From the NCBI GenBank assembly GCA_021234155.1, contig JAJEKV010000036.1, forward strand, positions 5,774,209-5,838,208: a stretch of DNA of 64,000 bases. Direction: 5' to 3'. A program made the translations under genes and the position numbers. Numbering within the stretch: position 1 is the stretch's first letter; every line of letters begins with the position of its first letter. Shown piece after piece: positions 1,338 to 64,000 of this stretch. A model generated the notes under the pieces. That model saw only the letters and a list, made by a program, of their open reading frames with translations. It was not told where the DNA came from and did no database searches. This stretch comes from Isoetes taiwanensis (Eukaryota > Streptophyta > Lycopodiopsida > Isoetales > Isoetaceae).

Positions 1338-2229
1338 TCAGAACTTCTTCTCGTTATGCTGTGCTCCACCACGATAGATATTCATTGTCCATTCAAGCTC
1401 GCCTACGACTTGGAATTCCAATATATCACCAACTTTAAGAGAATAGTGGCTGACTAGCAGGTTCCAATTATGACTCAAACAATATCGACTGGTTTTTGCT
1501 TTCAATTTAGTGTCAATACCATCTGGTCCATGAACAAGGATTGCAGAACCCCTTGGAGGCATTCGCCAACGATCTTCCTCCTTCAATCTCTGACACAGAA
1601 AATAGAGAGCTAAGAATTTCTGGAAGGAAAATTAATCAAAGGGGAAATTTTTACTCACCAATCCTGATGAATAAATACGTTTGAGCAGTGGAACTTTAAA
1701 AGCTTTCTTAATGTCTGGTTCATCATCTGATACATTAACAGAGTCTTCTGGTTCTTTTGCTACACGTCTTTGTCGAGCATTAACAACTTCCTGCCGTGCT
1801 TTTTCATCCTCTACCTGCCAAATTCCAAGGGCTTTGGTCCGATTGCTGCCATCACACTTCTTTGCAAATACTCTGTTGCTATCCTCCGATATCACACATA
1901 AAATAACATCACCATCTACGAAAAGATTATCAGTCAAGAAAGCTTCCCATCCTTGGCCAAAAAACAATTTTGGCCCTGCAGATGCCACAAAAACTTGATG
2001 TTCTTTCCCATTTGGTCCTACAACTATCACATAACAATCTGGGCGCAAAGGAACATGATGGAGCTCCTGGAAATAAGAAAAATGAGAAATACATAGCAGA
2101 GAGATAAAAAAAATCTACTAGAGCAACCTATAAGTAAAAAACGACTGGGCTTACAAGCAAATGTCCATAATCGACATGTATTAGAAAACTTCTTTCCGTC
2201 GCCATCAGTCTACCTCCGTTCATCTCCAT
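1338..2229 (-). CDS. Two-B3-domain (REM-like) putative transcription factor, three exons
   Basis: Probable nuclear DNA-binding protein of the plant B3 superfamily. The reading is three exons, 2229-2155, 2066-1659 and 1589-1338, of 75, 408 and 252 bases. All are in phase 0, joined across introns of 88 and 69 bases with GTAAGC/CAG and GTGAGT/CAG borders, giving 244 codons plus stop. The first B3 domain spans about residues 12-110, with the family pattern of a GPNGKEHQV strand, then GWEAFLTDNLFVDGDVI. The second spans about 145-240, with KAFKVPLLKR, a GPDG turn, then LKVGDILEFQVVGE. An acidic and basic linker lies between them. Paired B3 domains are typical of the REM group. The start at 2229 is the first ATG in the open frame; in-frame ATGs at 2223 and 2205 are alternatives. 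No stop or frameshift is seen, so it may be functional. Targets cannot be told from sequence. Confidence 0.8.
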
Positions 2230-4292: not shown

Positions 4293-5996
4293 CTAAGGAT
4301 GGCCGGATTGTTCGGGGGGAACCATGGGATAGGTGCTTCCCTGCAGCATTTTGAGAGCGTCAGCTATGGCGGGACGGAGGCCAGGCTCCGGCTGGCTGCA
4401 CCACAACCCCACTTCCAGTACTCTGACGGCCTCTTCGTACACGAAGCTTGCATCCCCGACTAGGCTGTGGTCCACCACATCCATAGCCTCTCCTTCTCGC
4501 ACCTTCCTCTCAACAAATTCCGTCAATATCCTCAGGCTCACCTCAGAACTCACTGATTCCGGAATCTCATACGGCTTTTTTCCGCTCACAAGCTCTAGCA
4601 GCACTACTCCAAAGCTGTACACATCGGTTTTGTCAGTCACCCTTGAGATCAGCCATTCCGGTGCCATGTATCCTGGAGTTCCTCTTATCTCAGTCTCAGT
4701 AAAAGAGGAGCTTTCATTCAGCTTTCTAGCCACTAGCTTCGAGAGCCCAAAATCTGCTATCTTGGGCCTGAAATTCTCATCCAAGAGTATGTTCTGCGGC
4801 TTCAGGTCCAAATGTAGCACTTGATCTCGGCATCCATTGTGCAGATACGAGAGCCCTGTTGCCACATCTAGTGCTATTGTGAACCTCTTCTTCCAGTCCA
4901 GAACATTTTTGTTTTTCTCCACGAAGAGCCACTTATCCAAGGAACTGTTGCGCATGTACTCGTACACTAATATATACCAGGGCAGATGCACACAGAACCC
5001 TCTTAATCTCACCAAATTCACGTGGTGGATGCTTCCCACCGACATCACCTCTGCTGCAAATTGCTTCTCAACCTTGTTCGCATTTTCCATCCGCTTCACT
5101 GCAATCTCAGTTCCATCTGTAAGTACTCCCAGATACACAGACCCAAACCCCCCAGAACCCAGTTTATTACTGAAATGCTTCGTCGCGACTTCTAGCTCTG
5201 TAAAATCAAATTTTCCAGGCAGTGCTTGCACGCTATTCGTCAATTTCTCATTATTTCTTCGCTCCCTTATCCGGCGCCTGCATTTAATCCAAACACAGAT
5301 CAGACATGATACTACAAATATAGCAGCAGCACTGACAGTTCCTGCTATTTTCCCCGCATCGCTACGTTGCCCTGATTTGACAAATTCCCAAGTTACATTC
5401 ATGGTGGCGCCGTCTGTTACATTTTTTATCACACCAAAAGCCTTCCAGATTGAATTGGTAGCAGACAAAATATTGTTGGCACATGGTTTATGGTAATCCA
5501 TGTCTTGGCTGCATCCTTTGGTGGAATCACATACGTCGATAACTGTGGCGGTAACAGAGGTGCCATTGGCTCCAAAAATTCTGATAGATTTTCCGCAGCT
5601 CTCGCCATTCTGGAACCATCCGGTGGACATGGCCACTTGGTGGGCAGATGCGTTGAACAGATCCCCACACAAACCTTTGTATAGATCTCGAGTGATGGCG
5701 ATCATGAGGGCACTGGATCTATGCTCGGATGTTGGCGAGCAGTAGTAAGCTGAGTAATTGCGGTGCACTTCGCAGCAGAATTGGTCGCAATCCTTTGGAC
5801 GGCTTTCCATGCTCACATTTTTGCTGCCGTTCTGATCGTCGTCGCATCTTCTGTTGATGCATTTCAAGAGGCCGCAGTCTGCATCTCTGCGGCATTTTGA
5901 TCTGCAAACAGCCTGCAACTGTGCCCCCGATTGGACTGTGAAGAGTAGGAGGAGGAGAACAGGAAGATTTTGATATGAAATCGAACGGAGATCCAT
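4293..5996 (-). CDS. Receptor-like kinase with a kiwellin ectodomain
   Basis: Single-pass membrane receptor kinase, 567 codons without intron. An upstream in-frame ATG at 6032 would add 12 residues. The ATG at 5996 is preferred because the signal peptide (about 1-25, LPVLLLLLFT core) follows it directly. Residues 31-51 form a Cys module (C-x3-C-x5-C-x4-C-x4-C, then DDD) like the kissper part of kiwellins. Residues 92-205 match the kiwellin double-psi beta-barrel core: MSTGWF, IDVCDSTKGC, PCANNI, then IWKAFGV. The ectodomain has 14 Cys and seven N-glycosylation sequons. A transmembrane segment lies at about 214-237, followed by an RRRIRERR stop-transfer. The kinase domain is about 276-552: GSGGFG, K301, E316, HLD with D397, DFG 415-417, APE 445-447. 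HLD lacks the Arg of RD kinases. Kinase style resembles the SD2-5/LRK10-like group. Known kiwellins are secreted defence proteins, and some bind a fungal chorismate mutase. An immune or cell-wall-sensing role is inference. Confidence 0.88.
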   Translation of the reverse strand: MDLRSISYQNLPVLLLLLFTVQSGAQLQAVCRSKCRRDADCGLLKCINRRCDDDQNGSKNVSMESRPKDCDQFCCEVHRNYSAYYCSPTSEHRSSALMIAITRDLYKGLCGDLFNASAHQVAMSTGWFQNGESCGKSIRIFGANGTSVTATVIDVCDSTKGCSQDMDYHKPCANNILSATNSIWKAFGVIKNVTDGATMNVTWEFVKSGQRSDAGKIAGTVSAAAIFVVSCLICVWIKCRRRIRERRNNEKLTNSVQALPGKFDFTELEVATKHFSNKLGSGGFGSVYLGVLTDGTEIAVKRMENANKVEKQFAAEVMSVGSIHHVNLVRLRGFCVHLPWYILVYEYMRNSSLDKWLFVEKNKNVLDWKKRFTIALDVATGLSYLHNGCRDQVLHLDLKPQNILLDENFRPKIADFGLSKLVARKLNESSSFTETEIRGTPGYMAPEWLISRVTDKTDVYSFGVVLLELVSGKKPYEIPESVSSEVSLRILTEFVERKVREGEAMDVVDHSLVGDASFVYEEAVRVLEVGLWCSQPEPGLRPAIADALKMLQGSTYPMVPPEQSGHP

Positions 5997-6236
5997 CACA
6001 TGCCCAAGGATCCTAGCTTCACACATTACCAACCAATAAAAATGAAGGAGCCATTTGGGGAAAAATCAACTCTGATATTCATTCAGTTACTCTGTTTGTC
6101 AAAGATAAGTCGCATGAATAAGAGACTATTGCCTCTTTTAATCCAAATGTCTACAGGTCCCTTCTACTATACGCTACTAGTACGAGTCATGCTCCTTCCT
6201 ATATCTTATCTTATCTTAAAATATATAATTCCTATC

Positions 6237-41638: not shown

Positions 41639-44275
41639 ATGTCGGCTCGAGGTTTCACTCCTGAACTTCTTTGCCAAACGGCGGCTCGACTGGAGCGCCA
41701 TCAACGACGCGAGGCTGTTCGGGATATGTATGATACTGCTTATGATATTGAGAGTGGTCGTGTCCGCTCCAGAGCTCAGTCGGCACCTCCTACCCCTCGT
41801 CCTCATTCTCGACCAGGGTCTCCCCCTGTGTGTAGGCATTGTTCTCAACCTCAATCTCCACAGCATACCCCTGTTCAGCCCACGCCTCACTATTTCCAGA
41901 CTCCTGAGAGCACCTATATATATCCCTTCAGGCCGTCACAACCATCTTCACCTCCTGCTGGGATGGCCTACCATCAAGTGTCCTTTGGCCCTCCCCATGT
42001 TCACGAATTTCAGTCTTCTCCATCTTTTCAGTATGCTCTTCCTGTTTATCAAACCACTGATCTCAAGCCTAATGAGGATGGCTCTCAAGACCCTTCCCCA
42101 CCTAATGCTACTTTCTATGGACCACCGGGTTTTTCAGTTCCACCCCCTTGCTCTCAATCCCAGGCGGTTCCACCTCTCTATGCTTCTGCATATCCTCCAT
42201 CACATCCACCTGTCTATCAGCAAGTTCCACCTTCATCTCCCACTCATAATTTGAAGCTGACTTATCCCACTTTTGGCAACACTAAAGGCAAACCTCTGGA
42301 TCAGAGTGCTTCAGCCCACATGGAGGAATTTGAAGCCTTGGCCATTCTCAATGGTCATGCGCAGTCACAACTCAAATTTCATATCTTTTCGACCACGCTC
42401 AGAGGCACCCCTCATTAGTGGTTAATGGCCAACAAAAGTCACTGGAAACAAAGTTGGCATGAAATGAAAACTGCCTTTCTGTCTCATTATGGCACCACGG
42501 ACGACGATCAGTTACTCCTCAAGCAACTTAATGACCTTCAGCAGGAGCCCACGGAGTCAGCCAGGGATTTTGCGGACCGTCTACACATTCTTGTCAGTAA
42601 ACTCCAGAAGTACCCCACGCAAAGCCAGATTCTTGTCTGGTTTCTGCAGGGCCTTCCTCCTGCCATTCGACTCATGACAGAATACCTGCGTCCAAAGTCT
42701 TTGGAGCATGCCATTGAATTGGTCAATCATTCGGTCAATGTTTCTTCTCGAGGTGTTGCTCTCACGGAACTCCCTTTCATGCCCCCCGTCATGGTTCCAC
42801 AGAACTCTGTTCAGCCTCCGCAAACCAATCCACAACGCTCTCAGATCTGGTGTACTATTTGTAAATATCAAGGTCATCTGGCAAATGAATGCAACTCCTC
42901 AAATGGACCTCCTCATTATAAAAGATGCAATATGTGCAATCACGCCACGGAAGAATGCACTCGTTCTCGTCCTACACCCTTTCGAAATAAAATGGTCTTT
43001 CAAGTCCAGACCATGCCTCAACAACCACAGTCATATCAGCCTCAGCAATATCAAACTCAACAACCTCAGTCGTATCAACAAACGCAGCAGCAGCTATGGG
43101 GACAAGGCAATCGTCCTCCCTTTGATCCTTCAAAGGCTCAATGTTACCATTGTCATGAATGGGGTCACACCACCACGGCGTGTCCTCAACTTCCTCAAGT
43201 TCAAGTCCAACTTCCAGGTTCAAATCAACCAGCTTCCGTACGTCTCACGGCTTATCAACTCTGGGTGGCCAATGGTAAACAGGGCCCTCGTCCTGTTTTG
43301 AGAAAGCCCCCTCGGCCGCCGCAACAACAGCGACCTCAGCAAGCAGCATCTACCTCCAATCCTATGGATCAACAAGCCCAAGAGGAGATTTATCAGGCAT
43401 TAAACCCTCCGGTCCAGCAGTCCAATTGGGTTGGGCTCGTCACACGTCACACACGGGCTTCATGTCCTTTGACCATCATCCCTCACGACACGCAACCTGC
43501 CTTTGCTGTTGAACCAGTTCCTCATGAAGAAGATAAAAAAGTTCACTTTGCGCCTGATCTTGACAAACTCATGCCTCACGTCATGCCTAAAGTACGACAA
43601 AGTATTTTGAAACTCATGCAGGCTGCGGAAGGTCGCACACTGGCAAATGTTCATGCTACCACTAGAGCTCAACAGCGTCAGGCCGCGCCGTCATCGTCTA
43701 CCGGCCCACGCTCTCAACCGTATCCAAATATTGCTGCTGAGGTAGCGCTTCTCAAAGAAGTCTCTGCTTCTTTGCCCCAGTCTCCAGCTCCACTGGACCC
43801 TGCGGACCCCTTTTCACATGTTCCTTTGGAACTTCAGGAAGAACTCGCCAAGATCAAGATTCCTTTGAGCCTGGCCACCATTTTGAAACTTTGTCCGGCT
43901 CTTGAAGATCAGTTACCTCTTCCCATGGTTCTGGTTGGAGCTGTTGCGACCTCCACACCCACGGTGCATGCCACGGTGGGCAATCAGCACATCAATCATG
44001 TCCAAATTGATGGTGGTAGTGCCGTCAATCTTATTACTGATAAATTCCGGAAGCAATTGGGCATCAAACAATTATACCGTGCCCCGTATGACATCAAGTT
44101 GGCAAATGGCCATATCACGTGCCCTCAAGGTGTCACTCCTCTTCTCCATATCAGCATTGGTGATCTCAAATTCCCATTGGAATTTGGTGTTTGGAAAGCT
44201 GGCGAAGATCCTGGTGATTATGAAATGCTGGTTGGACGACCTTTTCTCCGCCAGGCTAAGAGTATTCATTACTAG
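41639..44275 (+). pseudogene. Tat-like gag and protease (one in-frame stop)
   Basis: From ATG 41639 a Pro/Ser/Gln-rich N-terminus leads into the capsid-like domain. TAG at 42416 interrupts it, and the same frame continues (WHEMKTAFLSHYGTTDDDQL, ESARDFADRLH). Next come two CCHC-like knuckles (about 42850-42960, and CYHCHEWGHTTTAC at 43142). A long linker follows, then a retropepsin region at 43950-44270 (VQIDGGSAVNLITDKF, GDYEMLVGRPFL). The protease active site reads DGG instead of the usual DTG/DSG. A second TAG at 44273 ends this frame, which continues open for about 60 codons. Structural protein plus protease of the particle. Confidence 0.85.
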
Positions 44276-47195
44276 GCCACGGACCAACTGGTTATCACTG
44301 ATGGACATCTCAATGCCACAATGGATCTGGAAACTGGCAAATTGATCTCTGTCGAGAATGCCGAACCTTCAATCTCAGATACCGATTCTAAAGAAGCACA
44401 AAACATTTATCATGTTCAAGCTCCTCCAGCGGGACTGCCTCTCTCCTCCTACCCTGAATGTTGATCCTTGGGGAGAGATGACGCTGGACCAGGACCAGGC
44501 TGTGGCTGCTCTCTTGGACCCATACCTGGATTCCTGCAATCGGATTCAACGTCTTGATCATTTTTCTGACCCAACCCCTTCTTCGGAGACCGTCGATGTT
44601 CGTGCTGTCATGAAGCAACCCTTGCTTGATGACATGCAGCAGCCTTTTTTCTTCACCACTCAAAATGCTGCTGCTCCTCCTGTCATGCTTCAACCTCCTG
44701 CTCATCAGGTTCAGGACACGGAGGTTATTCCTCATATTCAAACTCCAGAGGTCGACATCGTGGACATTGGAAACAATCAACCGGTCCGTTTGGCTGCTCA
44801 TCTTCCATCCACCTATAAAGCACGAAAGTTCAAACATATATTTGCTTGGAGCTACAAAGACCTTCGAGGTATCAAAAAAGAATTGGGGGAACTCACCATT
44901 CCTACCAAACCTGATGCACGCCCAATCTAGCAACGACAGTACAGGCTCAACCCAAATTACCGTGACCGCGTCAAGGCTGAACTTGACAAACTCTTAGTTG
45001 CTGGCCTGATTTATGAGGTCAAACATTCTGAATGGGTGAGCCCCATCGTCATTGCTCTCAAACACAATGGTAAGATCCGCGTTTGCATGGACTACAGAAA
45101 ACTCAATCAAGCTACGGAGCGCGATCACTTTCCGCTTCCCTTCACTGACCAGGTTCTTGAAGAAGTTGCTGGTCATGAGATGTACTCTTTCATGGATGGT
45201 TTTTCTGGGTACAATCAAATCTCTATCAAGCAAGAGGATCAACTCAAAACTACCTTCACCACCCCGTGGGGCACTTTTGCCTACAAGGTGGTCCCTTTTG
45301 GTTTGTCAAACTCTCCTTCAACGTTTCAGCGCATCATACTTTCTGTCTTTCACGATTTTATGAAGGATAAACCTTTTCTTCAGATCTTTCAAGATGATTT
45401 TTCAGCCTACAGCTCCATGGATGATCATTTGGAAAAATTGGAGCTTGTCTTTCAAAAATGTGATGAATCTGGCATTAGTCTCAATCCTGAGAAGTGCACT
45501 TTTTGCGTCACCTCAGGTGTTCTGTTGGGACATGTGGTCAGTCAAGAAGGCATCACCACGGATCCCGCTAAAATCAGTTGTGTACTGAAAGCTCAAGCAC
45601 CATCTAATATCAAAGAGACACGCTCTTTCCTGGGTAAAGTTAATTATTATTCCACCTTCATTCCTGGACTTGCAGCTATAGCTGACTCCATTCATAAACT
45701 CACGGGTGATGAATCCACTTGGGCTTGGAATCCCCAAGCGGAAGCTGCTTTTCAGAAGTTGAAGCTGTTACTTACTCAGGCCCCAGTACTTGTTCCTCCT
45801 CAATGGGACAAGCCCTTCCATGTTCATATTGACGTCTCTGCCTTTGCAATTGGTGTTGTTCTCTCTCAGGCCTATGATGACACCACGGATAAACCAATCC
45901 GCTATGCCAGCCGAAAACTCAATCCTGCTGAGCGCAACCACTCTGCCACGGAACGCGAAGCTTTGGGCTTAGTTTTCTGTGTCCAACGTTTCAGACATTA
46001 TTTTTTGGGTAGCCAGATTAAGTTCTTTGTTGATCATCAAGCTCTTCTTTCTTTGATCAACAAAGCCACGCCCACGGGTAGAATTGCTCGTTGGGTCCTT
46101 CTTCTGCAAGAATTCGCTCCCTTCGAAATTGTTCATAAGGCAGGCAAATCTCATGTGGTGCCTGATTATCTTTCACGTATCCACACGGATGATCCCTCCA
46201 CGGGTGTTTCTGACGCCTTTCCAGATGCACAATTGTTCATGATCACGGCCACGCCCCATTGGTTTCATAACTTTCAGCAATATCTTCTCACTGGAGCTCT
46301 TCCTCCTGAAAATCCGACGCTCTCTGCAGACAAGCTTCGTTCTCGTCGCCGTCAATTTCTCAGAGAGGTCCGTGACTACACCATGGTTGCAGGTCACCTC
46401 TATAAACGCGGTAAAGACATGGTCCTCCGTCGTTGTGTCCTCCCTCATGAGGTGCCCGATATTGTTCGACAAGCTCATGACGGGCTTGGTGGTGGTCATT
46501 TTCGTGGTGACGCCACGGCACGCAAAATTCTTTTGGCAGGATATTTCTGGCCCCCGCTCTTTAAAGATGCCCACGCTTATGCTCGCACGTGTGACGTCTG
46601 TCAGCATATGGGAAAGCCCACGGCCCGTGACGCTCTTCCATTGACGCCGGTCGCCACGCCACTTCCTTTCAGCAAATGGGGAATGGATTTTGTGGGGCCC
46701 ATGGACCCACCGGCGCGGCACACCCGTGCCCGCTACATTCTGGTCATCACGGATTATGCTACTAAATGGGCGGAAGCTTGTGCACTTCCAGACAACACTG
46801 CTGCCAGCACAGCCAAGGTTCTCTACACGCACATCATCACGCATTTTGGTTGTCCCACGGAATTTGTTAGTGATCGTGGCGTGCATTTTGTAAATCATAC
46901 TATCAAGGAGCTGACGGATTATCTTCACATACAGCACAGGAAGAGTACACCTTACTATCCTCAAGGAAATGGCTTGGCTGAAAGTACCAATAAAATCTCA
47001 TCATTGTTCTCAAGAAAATTTGTGACGCTTCTCGAATGATTGGCAAGACAAGCTGCCTACTGTTCTTTGGGCTTATAACACCAGTTTTAAAATTGCTACT
47101 GGCCACACTCCTTTCAAGTTGGTTTATGGTCAAGAAGCTCTTATGCCTTTCGAATATATTCTTCCCACTCTCCGTTTCCAACTTGCTACAGCACA
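44276..47195 (+). pseudogene. Tat-like RT, RNase H and integrase (broken)
   Basis: A frame change near 44450 leads into 44358-44930, a linker with IFAWSYKDLRGI. TAG at 44928 follows, and then one long frame to 47039. RT: CMDYRKLNQATERDHFPLPF, SFMDGFSGYNQI, and FQDDFSAYSS where the usual YxDD is FQDD. RNase H: HVHIDVSAFAIGVVLSQ. Integrase: GHFRGDATARKIL zinc region, then GMDFVGPM, SDRGVHF and GNGLAESTNK carrying the D, D and E. After the stop at 47037-47039, shifted frames give VLWAYNTSFKIATGHTPFKL and EALMPFEYILPTLRFQ, ending at about 47193. Inactive as read. Confidence 0.88.
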
Positions 47196-52541: not shown

Positions 52542-53134
52542 TGTTTGGGGTCTGGGTTCGGGAACTCCTGCAAGACAGCCCTCTGCGAGGACCCTTGGAT
52601 CAAACAGGAGAATCCGGGGAGCTATGTCACGCGGGATTTGCAAAAGAACAAGAAAAAAGAGAAAAGACAACAAAGGGAACAAGGAGAACACAATAATGAG
52701 AACAACTTCCTTGATGTCAATGAAGATACATGAGCTCTCGCAATCGAGAGAAAACTGAAGTGAGACAAGACTCTAAACTCATCTAAAAACTCATGTACTA
52801 GCTCTACTCATATATATAGTACAATGGCCTTTGGCCCAATATAGACACTCTGACTGATTTCGGTGCCGAACCCTGGAAGGAGGCCTGATTTGCAGGAATG
52901 CTGGCGGTGCCTCTTGAAGTGCCTGAAATCACGCTGACGCTAACGCGGGCGGTGACGGCCCGTCACTTGTCTGAGCGCTTCCTCTTGACGGCCGGCGCGG
53001 CCTTTGACTGCGTGGTCTGCTTGGTCTTCTGCTGGGCCTTTGACGACTGACCTGTGCCTGGCTGTGGATCCTTGGCCTTGACTTGGTCCGTCGTATGCAT
53101 GAATAGTTCTGTACCAGCACGTACATGACTAACA
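52542..53134 (-). repeat. 3' LTR of the Tat-like element (inverted)
   Basis: 593 bp, the same length as 41005-41597 and about 98 percent identical by eye, on the opposite strand. The U3 start encodes the last residues and stop codon of the extra ORF. Confidence 0.92.
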
Positions 53135-56100
53135 CTCCCCCCCACCAAACGACACTCAGGGTGAAGAAAGGGAGGTAGGGTTTCCGATGGCGAGAACCCA
53201 GCAGTCTGAAAGTGATCCTCACGTGAATGAGGGCGGGCGCCATTGTGGTAACTGCCAATGAGGTTCTGGCGTGTTTGAAGAGCGTCAGGAGTGTTGAGCC
53301 CAAGGGCAGGATCTGCATCAATGAGGAATTTAGAGCGCACCATGTCTTCAAGGGCAGCATGAGCTTCCGAAGGAACAAACTGGCACTCCATGAGAAGGCA
53401 GGTCTGGAGACCGAAGGCACTGACGCTGGCATTCGGGTTGCAATAAAAGATGGGACGCTGCCGATTTAAGGAGCTCACCAGGATGCACTTAAGAGCAGCA
53501 CAGAAACCGGCTTGACGGTGAACAGAAGGATCTGGTGAGGTGGCGGCATTCTGTAAGAAGGCATCAAGGCCATGAACAGCATCAGCGGGCTTTTGCCAAC
53601 CACGCTCATTTGCAATATAGATCCAATTTTCTGTAGAGTCCAAAGTGGCACCATCCTCCCAATTGGAGCGTCTGACAAATCGTGGATCCCACCGGAGATC
53701 CGTCGAGATGTGAGGGGGAGTCCACCCAGCGTGGCCATCCAGGACCTTGGTCCAAAAGGGAAGACGCCAATCAGAGGTGAGGAACCGTGGGCGTGGAGGA
53801 ACTCCCAATGAAGCATATGGAGAGCGAGCCAGACCTGTGGGCGTGGGCTGCTTAGCCATTTCCCTAAATTCACCAACAAGATCTTGATTAAGAGCACGGC
53901 ACCACTGGTCCCACGCTGAAGCAGAGAGTTGAGTATAGACAGGAGGATTAACCCAACCCGCTGGGATGGTCTTGCTTTCCAGAAGGCCACGCAGTTGATT
54001 GTAGCCTCCCAAGTGTTGCATATAAATTTGGGCAAACTCAAGATCCTCAGGATGCGCTAAATTTCTCCGTACCTGTTCCAATGTTTCAGCCTGCCATAGA
54101 GGTAAGTGCTGAGCAAGTTCAGGCATGTACTCCTGTTCAAAAGCCTGAGACTGAGCATGATCCTTGAAATACGGGTTGGTTGGCAATAAGAACCAAGCAG
54201 CATGGGAGTCGCCTCGGAAAACACGATGTGCCTCATCGCGGAATTTATCATGTATATCAGCCAGGTAGAAGTCATGAAAAACATAGGCCATGGGCTGAAC
54301 AACTCGAAAGATGACCAAATCTGGATCTTCACTATTGAGTTGATCAAAGACTAAGAGGGCACAAAATAAACCCTTGTCTTCCACAGAAAGATCCGGCCAG
54401 ATCCTTAGAAAATCCGCACTGCGGAGTGGCTGCTGATGAACCTGGCCATTTGCCGCGTACCACTTCAGAAGGAAAAGGTGGCGTCGGGCAACCACATAGT
54501 CCAGATAACTGGAAGGAGTAGAGAAGTCCACAGGGATGTTTGTAGCAATATCAATATATCCCTCCTGTTTATTTTGGGCTTCTTCAGCCGATTGAACAGC
54601 TTGCTGAAGCTGATGTTCGAGGTCACGGATCCGGTTCTCTTTTTCTAGCAGGAGACGAGACTGGTCACGGACCCATTTGTGTGAGAGCGTGCCATGTGAA
54701 GAGGATGGCCCAGGAGTATGAAGGCGAAGCGCAGCAATCTCAGCGTCATCAATGACCTTTTGTTTCTTAGCTTCCGTAAGCTGATCTTGAAGAGGCGTGA
54801 GCTGACTGGTCAGCGTGGAAAGCTGAGCTTCTAAGGAGGTGATGCGAGCGTCACGGTCTGTAAGGTCATGGACTTGAGTGCTGTAACTCTGAGAAAGCTC
54901 ATTATACAAGGTGTTAAGTTTGGCAAGGTCTTTGTCCTTGTCGCCCAGGAGGCTATCCTTGACCTTGACATGCTCCAGCAATTCCTGAATTGTGGTTTGC
55001 AACTGAGCATGTTGGTCAGCAAGCAAACTGTTTTGATCTTGTGCATTCTTGAGAGCCTCACGGGCCTGTAAAAGAGCCTCGTGTTTTGCTTGAAGTGTGT
55101 CCTCTAGAGTTTGAACTTGCGTGTTGGCAGCCTGAAGGTCTCTATGAACCGCGTCCGAGGCCTCCAGGGACGCTTGAACACCTTTCATGAGGACTTCCTG
55201 GGATTCTTGTAACTTGAGGACAGCAGCTTGAACATCCTGCTGGTATTGATACAGAAGCTGGCGAGGATGTGGAGGGGCAGGGGCCTGCTGTTGCTGTGTT
55301 TGTGACGTCTGAGAGACATGATAAGAAGTGGAGGGCATGGATTCCGTGGAGGAAGAAGAGACTGTGACATGCGTGGTATTGCGTTGATCATGACTAGGAG
55401 AAGAAGGGCGTGAAGTGGCAGCCTGTTGGTTTTGAGGAAGGGAATGAAAGGACTGGTGAGTGGAGGCATGAGAAGCAGAAGGTGACCCCAAGAGAGGAAG
55501 GTAATGACAGATGATGGCTTGAAGATAGGCGCCCACCGAGGAATCAAAGCCAGAGGAAGGTGCAGCGCGAATACGATCTACTTCTTGAAGAAGACGGAAA
55601 AACAGCAGTTGGGGCCAATCAATATGGTGAGTGGAGCCGTGATGACAATATTGTAGAACGGTTTGTTGATATGGGTGTTTTTGATGGAGTACCCAAGCAA
55701 TTTGCGCCACAGAAACTTGACAAAAGTGTCATGGGGCTTGGCAATGTTGGCGAGGCAATGCATGTTAGCTTGATAAGGAACATCGCCAAACTGAGTGACA
55801 TCTATGTCCTGTAAGGCAGCCCAAGATAAAGAAGGTTTTTGCAAAGGAATATGAAATACCTCAGAAATCAGTGGCTGAGTAAGCAAAATGGTGGTGCCAT
55901 CAACCGTGGTAGCATAGCCTTCCGGGCTGTTGATGATATGAGCAACAAACTGCTTCAATTGCTCAGAATTTGGTGCCAGTAGGTCCATTTGTGAGAATTC
56001 GTAAAGCTCCTGGCGTTCCGCTACTTCACGACTCGGGCCAACTAGGGCTTCGCGAAAGGTGGGTGTCGAGAAGGTCACAGACTCAAAAAGAGCCGGATCC

Positions 56101-63021: not shown

Positions 63022-64000
63022 TCATAAAAAACATTTTTTAATGTCATCTATCTCCATAGAACAACAAGTACTGTATAGAGCCCTCGCCAAAGCATCCCTT
63101 CTTGCAGTGTCTTCTAGAACTAGCTCTTCAATATTTTTTCCATTTCTATTTTCCTCTCCATTTTCATCAGCTTCCTCAGCATTCTCATTTTGGTGTGCAC
63201 TTACTGCATCTAGTTCACATAAAGCCTCCCTTGCACTCGCCTCATTTCCTTCTAAGTCCAAGGCTGCTTCAGTGACCCAATTCTCATCAAATGCTTCATT
63301 ATGCATAATGCACAAATTGTGCATCACCAAGCAAGCAACTACAACCATTAGCACATGCTTAAGATGTGTCTTTCTTCAATAATATATGAAATTGTGCTTT
63401 CAGTATGCCAAAGGCCCATTCCACAGACATTCTAGTGCTCGATTGGATGAAATTCCAATGTTTTTCATGATCCTTAAATTTGGTACCTTTGTTAATAAAT
63501 GGGGTCAACAACCAAAGCCTTGGAGTATATGCAACATCACCAAGCAAACAATAATTCTTTATTTTTCCAGACTCAAATTTAGTGTAAGTCGTTGTTCGTT
63601 CTGTTAGAGCCCAATCATGCATGCTCCCAGCCCATCCAATGTCATAGTCCCATATCAAACATCTGGAATCCACAATGGCGTGCAGAAGTATCGAATGGAA
63701 TCCTTTCCTATTGTAATAGTCTACATCATGGTCACTTGGAGATGTGATAGGAATATGACTACCATCTACCGCCCCAATTACATTCGGAATACCCTGATTT
63801 GCCTCTAGCAAACTCCTTGCATTGATTTTCGCTTGGCCAATGCAATCCACAATACAGTTCTCTCATTTTTAGCTTCATAGCTCGACTAAATTCCACAACA
63901 CATCTATGAACATTATTGTGGTGCCAACTCTGTAGAGTTCTGCTATATAATAATCTAGTGTTGACCCAGTAACCAGGCGTGTCAGTGCAATGGCAACCTT
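63022..64000 (-). pseudogene. PIF/Harbinger-type transposase, partial and frameshifted
   Basis: Runs off the right edge. On the minus strand HHNNVHRCVVEFSRAMK (about 63920-63870) leads, after a shift, into 63850-63359. That frame holds GIPNVIGAVDGSHIPI (first catalytic D), KGFHSILLHAIVDSRCLIWD, CLLGDVAYTPRLWL (second D) and RMSVEWAFGILKAQF (the E). Another shift near 63360 joins 63354-63022, the C-terminus (VMHNLCIMHNEAFDEN, acidic tail). This is the DDE superfamily of HARBI1-like transposases. The triad residues are present but the frames are broken. The N-terminus and the partner Myb-like ORF lie outside or are absent. Confidence 0.87.

Follow-up and report, generated by a model that had tools for sequence, protein, structure and literature searches.

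The aquatic quillwort Isoetes taiwanensis carries a gene, named here KWLK1 (kiwellin receptor-like kinase), that encodes a kiwellin domain and a Ser/Thr kinase domain in one uninterrupted frame, with a predicted transmembrane segment between them. The gene lies at 4293..5996 on the minus strand of a 64,000-nucleotide stretch of contig JAJEKV010000036.1 (NCBI GenBank assembly GCA_021234155.1, positions 5,774,209 to 5,838,208 of the forward strand), which is referred to below as the window and whose coordinates are used unless another locus is named. Judged from its sequence, KWLK1 is most probably a functional single-pass receptor-like kinase (RLK) with a defence protein as its ectodomain, probably sensing an apoplastic ligand.

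Domain layout of KWLK1

The open reading frame spanning KWLK1 extends over 4293..6032 (-), and from the ATG at 5996, which begins MDLRS, to the stop codon at 4293-4295 it holds 567 codons plus stop with no in-frame stop between, giving a 567 aa product. The single uninterrupted frame of the original prediction, which had not stated the strand, was thus borne out, on the minus strand. On the plus strand opposite KWLK1, frame 1 is closed, and the antisense frames are 163, 219, and 81 codons long (among the listed frames of at least 80 codons).

The N-terminus of the product is hydrophobic, with a hydropathy peak of 1.68 over residues 13-31, and residues 1 to ~25 (5922..5996 (-), boundary approximate) form a probable signal peptide; of the signal peptide claimed earlier, the hydrophobic N-terminus therefore stands, while the peptide itself is kept as a prediction from hydropathy. 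It is followed by a kissper-like module with Cys 31, 35, 41, 46, and 51 (5844..5906 (-)), which was placed by alignment with the kiwifruit kiwellin 4pmk and its Cys counted by eye. As had been proposed, five of the ectodomain Cys sit there; five are also present in the related genes KWLK2 and KWLG described below, in contrast to six in 4pmk, so that none of the three has a six-Cys kissper. The count of 14 ectodomain Cys was confirmed in residues 1-212, which also carry seven N-glycosylation motifs, and 14 were counted by eye in 4pmk as well.

The double-psi beta-barrel core was recognized by the Pfam profile KWL1 (PF24300) at residues 71-203 (5388..5786 (-)), with E 2.8e-23, and the match begins at position 64 of the profile. 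This was a test on which the original prediction had staked its case, and it returned 83 bits against a curated cut-off of 27. The kiwellin extension that distinguishes kiwellins from barwin-like proteins is present, as CC...NYS.YYCSP aligns with the solved kiwellins and with those of the same genome, and the motifs MSTGWF, IDVCDSTKGC, PCANNI, and WKAFGV listed beforehand were all found in the translation. Consistently, residues 1-227 matched four distinct sequences in the PDB (4pmk, 4x9u, 6fpg, and 6ti2; E 8.8e-24 to 1.5e-22, at a limit of E 1), of which two are named kiwellin; the other two, named ripening-related protein 3, are the maize kiwellins solved as 6ti2 and 6fpg. Structure prediction of the ectodomain agreed with this assignment, in that a model with a mean predicted local distance difference test score (pLDDT) of 60.5, used for its core only, gave kiwellins as the first rows of a fold search, followed by expansins, a loosenin, a barwin-like protein, and others. 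Pfam searches gave neither a thaumatin nor a B_lectin match in KWLK1 at E up to 1; B_lectin was likewise not matched in KWLK2 (E up to 0.1), and neither protein matched an S-locus or PAN domain.

KWLK1 therefore shares with the kiwellin family (Kwl1 / Kissper-Kwl1; Act d 5, ZmKWL1) the KWL1 profile, the double-psi barrel, the CC..Y..YxCSP motif, and a kissper-like N-terminus. However, known members are secreted and free, whereas KWLK1 is fused to a transmembrane segment and a kinase and so is not a free soluble protein. The transmembrane segment is predicted from hydropathy at residues 214-241 (5274..5357 (-)), with the basic stretch KCRRRIRERR at and after its end, and the Ser/Thr kinase domain starts at residue 275 (4341..5174 (-)). 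The Pfam family Pkinase matched residues 275-485 (E 9.4e-46, 156.8 bits, cut-off 31.7), and the alignment with the paralogue extends to ~552. The transmembrane helix and kinase of the original prediction were accordingly recovered, the latter with the motifs GSGGFGSV, AVK, HLDLKPQN, ADFG, and APE, by which the kinase looks active and belongs to the non-RD (non-arginine-aspartate) type. Kinases of this non-RD class have often been associated with immune receptors. The whole layout, that is, an extracellular domain, a single hydropathy-defined transmembrane segment, and a Ser/Thr kinase with its catalytic motifs, is that of the RLK/Pelle family.

Kiwellin-kinase copies in the genome and signs of selection

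A genome-wide kiwellin profile search, covering 1,658,258,908 bases in 1110 contigs, returned 18 matches, and 4 of them lie in kiwellin-kinase copies, namely KWLK1, KWLK2, and decayed copies on contigs C92 and C1106. KWLK2, on contig C1027 (L009:5499-7262 (+)), is an intact 588-codon frame with the same domain order as KWLK1, to which it is 54% identical over 555 codons. A fifth copy, decayed and outside the 18 matches, lies ~88 kb from KWLK1 and shares its contig (C1041, at around 5.69 Mb; L025, L053). Its protein pieces are 90-97% identical to KWLK1, with a stop, a missing piece, and an insert, and no match was found in it beyond KWLK1 residue 447; it keeps the kiwellin-to-transmembrane join, with residues 177-245 in one piece. 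This locus also holds a frame that by eye resembles a retroelement RNase H. The copies on C92 and C1106 are short, the end of the kiwellin being closely followed by the start of the kinase with the transmembrane part missing. This shortening is common to the two decayed KWLK1-like fragments, L019:4428-4727 and L018:4884-5148, which lie on different contigs and whose translated surroundings look alike by eye, suggesting that a single shortened copy has undergone duplication.

Further, a set of 5.8 billion proteins was searched twice; one search yielded 108 candidates but no match at E up to 1, and the other, with the ectodomain alone, yielded 17 but no match at E up to 0.01. Since the ectodomain query also missed ordinary plant kiwellins, plant proteins seem to be scarce in this set or missing from it, and the lack of KWLK1 relatives there is uninformative.

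Substitutions between the copies were then compared by codon position. Between KWLK1 and KWLK2, the differences at positions 1/2/3 were 75/56/169 in the kinase (285 codons, chi-square p 1e-16) and 60/50/95 in the ectodomain (175 codons, chi-square p 3e-4), and the ratio of nonsynonymous to synonymous substitution rates (dN/dS) of the ectodomain was 0.21 (NG86). Against the decayed copy on C1041, dN was 0.020 and dS 0.121, that is, a dN/dS of 0.16 (350 codons, one stop codon omitted), and the differences between KWLK1 and the three decayed copies were likewise concentrated at position 3, with position 1/2/3 counts of 11/6/26, 2/3/11, and 2/0/11 (p 5e-4, 0.01, and 4e-4, respectively). These substitutions bear signs of purifying selection on the kiwellin-kinase, and we infer that the fusion has existed for a long time in this lineage and has been maintained as coding sequence. 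Together with the Pfam matches and the catalytic motifs, they back the claim that KWLK1 is a receptor kinase with a kiwellin as its entire ectodomain.

That three other copies are decayed could point to an artefact, in which KWLK1 would be an assembly chimera, a pseudogene, or two adjacent genes mistaken for a single one. This is very improbable, as the KWLK1 frame is intact, a second intact gene of the same architecture is found on another contig, and the C1041 copy both retains the kiwellin-to-transmembrane join and shows the low dN/dS against KWLK1; a chimera in particular is made unlikely by KWLK2, the three decayed copies, and purifying selection.

Several observations nevertheless weigh against KWLK1 being a functional receptor-like kinase. 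The ectodomain model falls below a pLDDT of 50 at model residues 29-64 and 131-148 and has a low mean, and the full-length model, with a mean pLDDT of 47.7 and a predicted template modelling score of 0.31, was not used. The N-terminal stretch of KWLK2, unlike those of KWLK1 and KWLG, stays below the hydropathy threshold used, so that secretion is put forward as a prediction. The linker, transmembrane, and juxtamembrane part is poorly conserved, with 26% identity between KWLK1 and KWLK2, and no dN/dS is given for the kinase, linker, and transmembrane segment because synonymous sites are saturated. In addition, the purifying signal seen against the decayed copies could come from one of the two copies only.

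Kinase relatives, KWLG, and gene surroundings

The best PDB relatives of the KWLK1 kinase were BAK1 (E 1.1e-59) and the lectin-type kinase 6cth (E 8.4e-57), and LysM RLK kinases were also among the matches. When the genome was searched with the whole KWLK1 protein, 77 of 2834 candidates were scored, and among these KWLK2 and the decayed copy were followed by three kinases with 50-51% identity and frames of 838-892 codons. At 27 loci (L026-L052), with 42-51% identity to KWLK1, the uninterrupted frames were 824-952 codons in 24 and 592-663 codons in the other 3, and B_lectin was found in all ten of the loci scanned with Pfam. The G-type (S-domain, B-lectin) RLKs are thus the closest kinases after the kiwellin-kinases themselves among the candidates scored, while the B_lectin ectodomain is present in the G-type only and not in KWLK1 or KWLK2.

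In a kinase tree of KWLK1, KWLK2, and L026-L052, which was unrooted and left out the decayed copy L025, KWLK1 and KWLK2 stood together at 100/100, apart from the 27 loci, and KWLK2 was flagged as a long branch. Since other RLK families are absent from it, the tree is not proof of a G-type lectin RLK origin, which is supported by the ranking in the genome search. Given a non-RD kinase that is closest in the genome to the B-lectin receptor kinases, the kiwellin may have replaced a lectin ectodomain, and we infer from the sequences that it took this place over an intronless kinase gene.

A kinase-less relative, KWLG (L009:3813-4514 (-), 234 aa; KWL1 E 3.1e-23), was found head-to-head with KWLK2 on contig C1027, the two genes being divergent with start codons 985 bases apart. 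KWLG terminates in a hydrophobic tail beyond which no residues follow; judged by eye and hydropathy, this tail looks like a glycosylphosphatidylinositol (GPI)-anchor signal. The 14 ectodomain Cys are in register across KWLK1, KWLK2, and KWLG, and in an ectodomain tree of eight kiwellin sequences of the same genome, several of them partial, the three formed one group at 99/98, in which KWLK2 joined KWLG at just 73/76. With such support at the inner node, KWLG may be a descendant that lost its kinase or a form that preceded the fusion; its GPI-like tail suggests an anchored intermediate or partner.

A kiwellin-only membrane complex is accordingly conceivable, in which KWLK would signal together with KWLG, one being the ligand-binding partner or the brake of the other. 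The divergent arrangement, the common Cys, the hydrophobic tail, and the grouping would fit such a pair, but the GPI signal was judged by eye and hydropathy, and KWLK1 has no KWLG-like neighbour in the window or in the preceding 10 kb (L022; tblastn with KWLK1). The complex is regarded as unlikely.

Conventional kiwellins also occur in the genome; those at L010 and L012, for example, carry six kissper Cys by eye count, and the KWLK1 ectodomain is 33-37% identical to the conventional ones. Frame-broken or stop-bearing copies of conventional kiwellins were seen at L011, L013, and L014.

The remainder of the window is occupied in part by mobile elements. The frames at 42425-44275 and 45036-47039 (+) encode gag and pol of a Ty3/gypsy-type retrotransposon (Retrotrans_gag; RVT_1, RNase H, integrase), and 63359-63850 (-) is a transposase fragment (DDE_Tnp_4, E 9.2e-25), which we take to be of the Harbinger/PIF type. 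A 915-codon frame at 52963-55710 (-) matched no Pfam family above cut-off; by eye, its C-terminal part is like that of frames beside KWLK2 (L009:8244-8862 (-)), and because of this likeness it is probably a mobile-element protein. A partial match to a B3 DNA-binding domain at 1338-1586 (-), with E 2.1e-4 and under the curated cut-off, is perhaps an exon of a B3-type gene. The Rfam search of the 64-kb window gave no match at gathering scores.

Candidate ligands and place among known receptor kinases

As a working model, the KWLK1 kiwellin, with its kissper-like module and double-psi beta-barrel, would be exposed in the apoplast, one helix would pass through the plasma membrane, and signalling inside would fall to a non-RD kinase of the kind that in this genome is joined to B-lectin ectodomains. 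The ligand of the kiwellin would most likely be apoplastic, either a molecule derived from the wall or a protein secreted by a microbe, and binding would lead to kinase-dependent, probably defence, signalling, as in plant RLKs with defence-related ectodomain modules. Candidates for the ligand are a microbial effector, a glycan of the wall, a partner kiwellin, and an endogenous molecule.

If the ligand were an effector, KWLK1 could act as an integrated decoy, as the original prediction had suggested, with the ectodomain mimicking a soluble kiwellin engaged by a Cmu1-type chorismate mutase or another effector and turning its binding into a signal. The non-RD kinase with its immune-receptor link, the likeness of the ectodomain to kiwellins above all, and the kinase-less kiwellins of the same genome would agree with this, and two kiwellins of maize bind secreted Cmu1 and thereby inhibit it (PMC9813671; for ZmKWL1 also PMC6419657). 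However, the KWLK1 ectodomain resembles the conventional kiwellins of its own genome only distantly and kiwellins may have other ligands, and a decoy has only a small chance of being the right reading. Smaller still is the likelihood that in Isoetes a kiwellin, which elsewhere neutralises a secreted fungal effector, has become a receptor detecting effectors directly at the cell surface, partnered by the kinase-less, membrane-anchored kiwellin encoded head-to-head, that is, a decoy at the surface and not inside a nucleotide-binding leucine-rich repeat (NLR) receptor.

Somewhat less doubtful, although still on the unlikely side, is a sensor that responds to glycans of the wall or to signals from the plant itself, in which the barrel would be used as in expansins and barwin-like proteins to monitor the state of the wall or an endogenous ligand. 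Expansins, the loosenin, and the barwin-like protein are among the proteins that come after the kiwellins in the fold search, and the nearest kinases in the genome sit under lectin ectodomains, but a shared fold is no proof of function, and, according to PMC6419657, carbohydrate hydrolysis had not been demonstrated for kiwellins. AtPR5K2, of comparable architecture, acts in drought and abscisic acid signalling (PMC6822995), which would also fit this reading, and a defence role of KWLK1 is therefore not to be presumed.

KWLK1 as a functional receptor-like kinase has a counterpart in PR5K, which likewise has a pathogenesis-related type of secreted protein as its ectodomain, together with a signal peptide, a transmembrane segment, and a Ser/Thr kinase (PMC6822995, in part). 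The PR5K ectodomain is thaumatin-like, whereas that of KWLK1 is a kiwellin. LysM RLKs also carry a defence or wall-related ectodomain module, of a different fold, and the same is true of the CHRK1-like chitinase RLKs. In the parts of two RLK papers covered here (PMC10868138 and PMC7333395), thaumatin-type RLKs are shown and the word "kiwellin" does not occur. A kiwellin survey of 20,630 proteomes reported 915 kiwellins from 142 land plants and one fungus and mentions 61 larger kiwellin proteins, of which 26 are duplications and two are triplications, while in 30 no additional domain was identified; in its main text, its supplementary fusion list being outside the scope, the words "kinase" and "Isoetes" are absent (PMC9813671, in part). 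No description of a kiwellin-kinase fusion was found in the titles and abstract openings of the papers retrieved on kiwellins, with subscription papers, preprints, and InterPro outside the scope. These comparisons suggest that the kiwellin is new as an RLK ectodomain, while an RLK with a defence-protein ectodomain is of an already known kind.

Work on kiwellins has dealt with them as free proteins of the apoplast, and for two of them inhibition of a fungal effector is known. Intact genes in which a kiwellin makes up the whole outer part of a receptor suggest that in this aquatic quillwort a defence protein serves as a sensor. The KWLK genes offer a natural construct for finding kiwellin ligands, with a readout of binding, and with them the receptor kinase repertoire of a lycophyte gains a defence-protein ectodomain.
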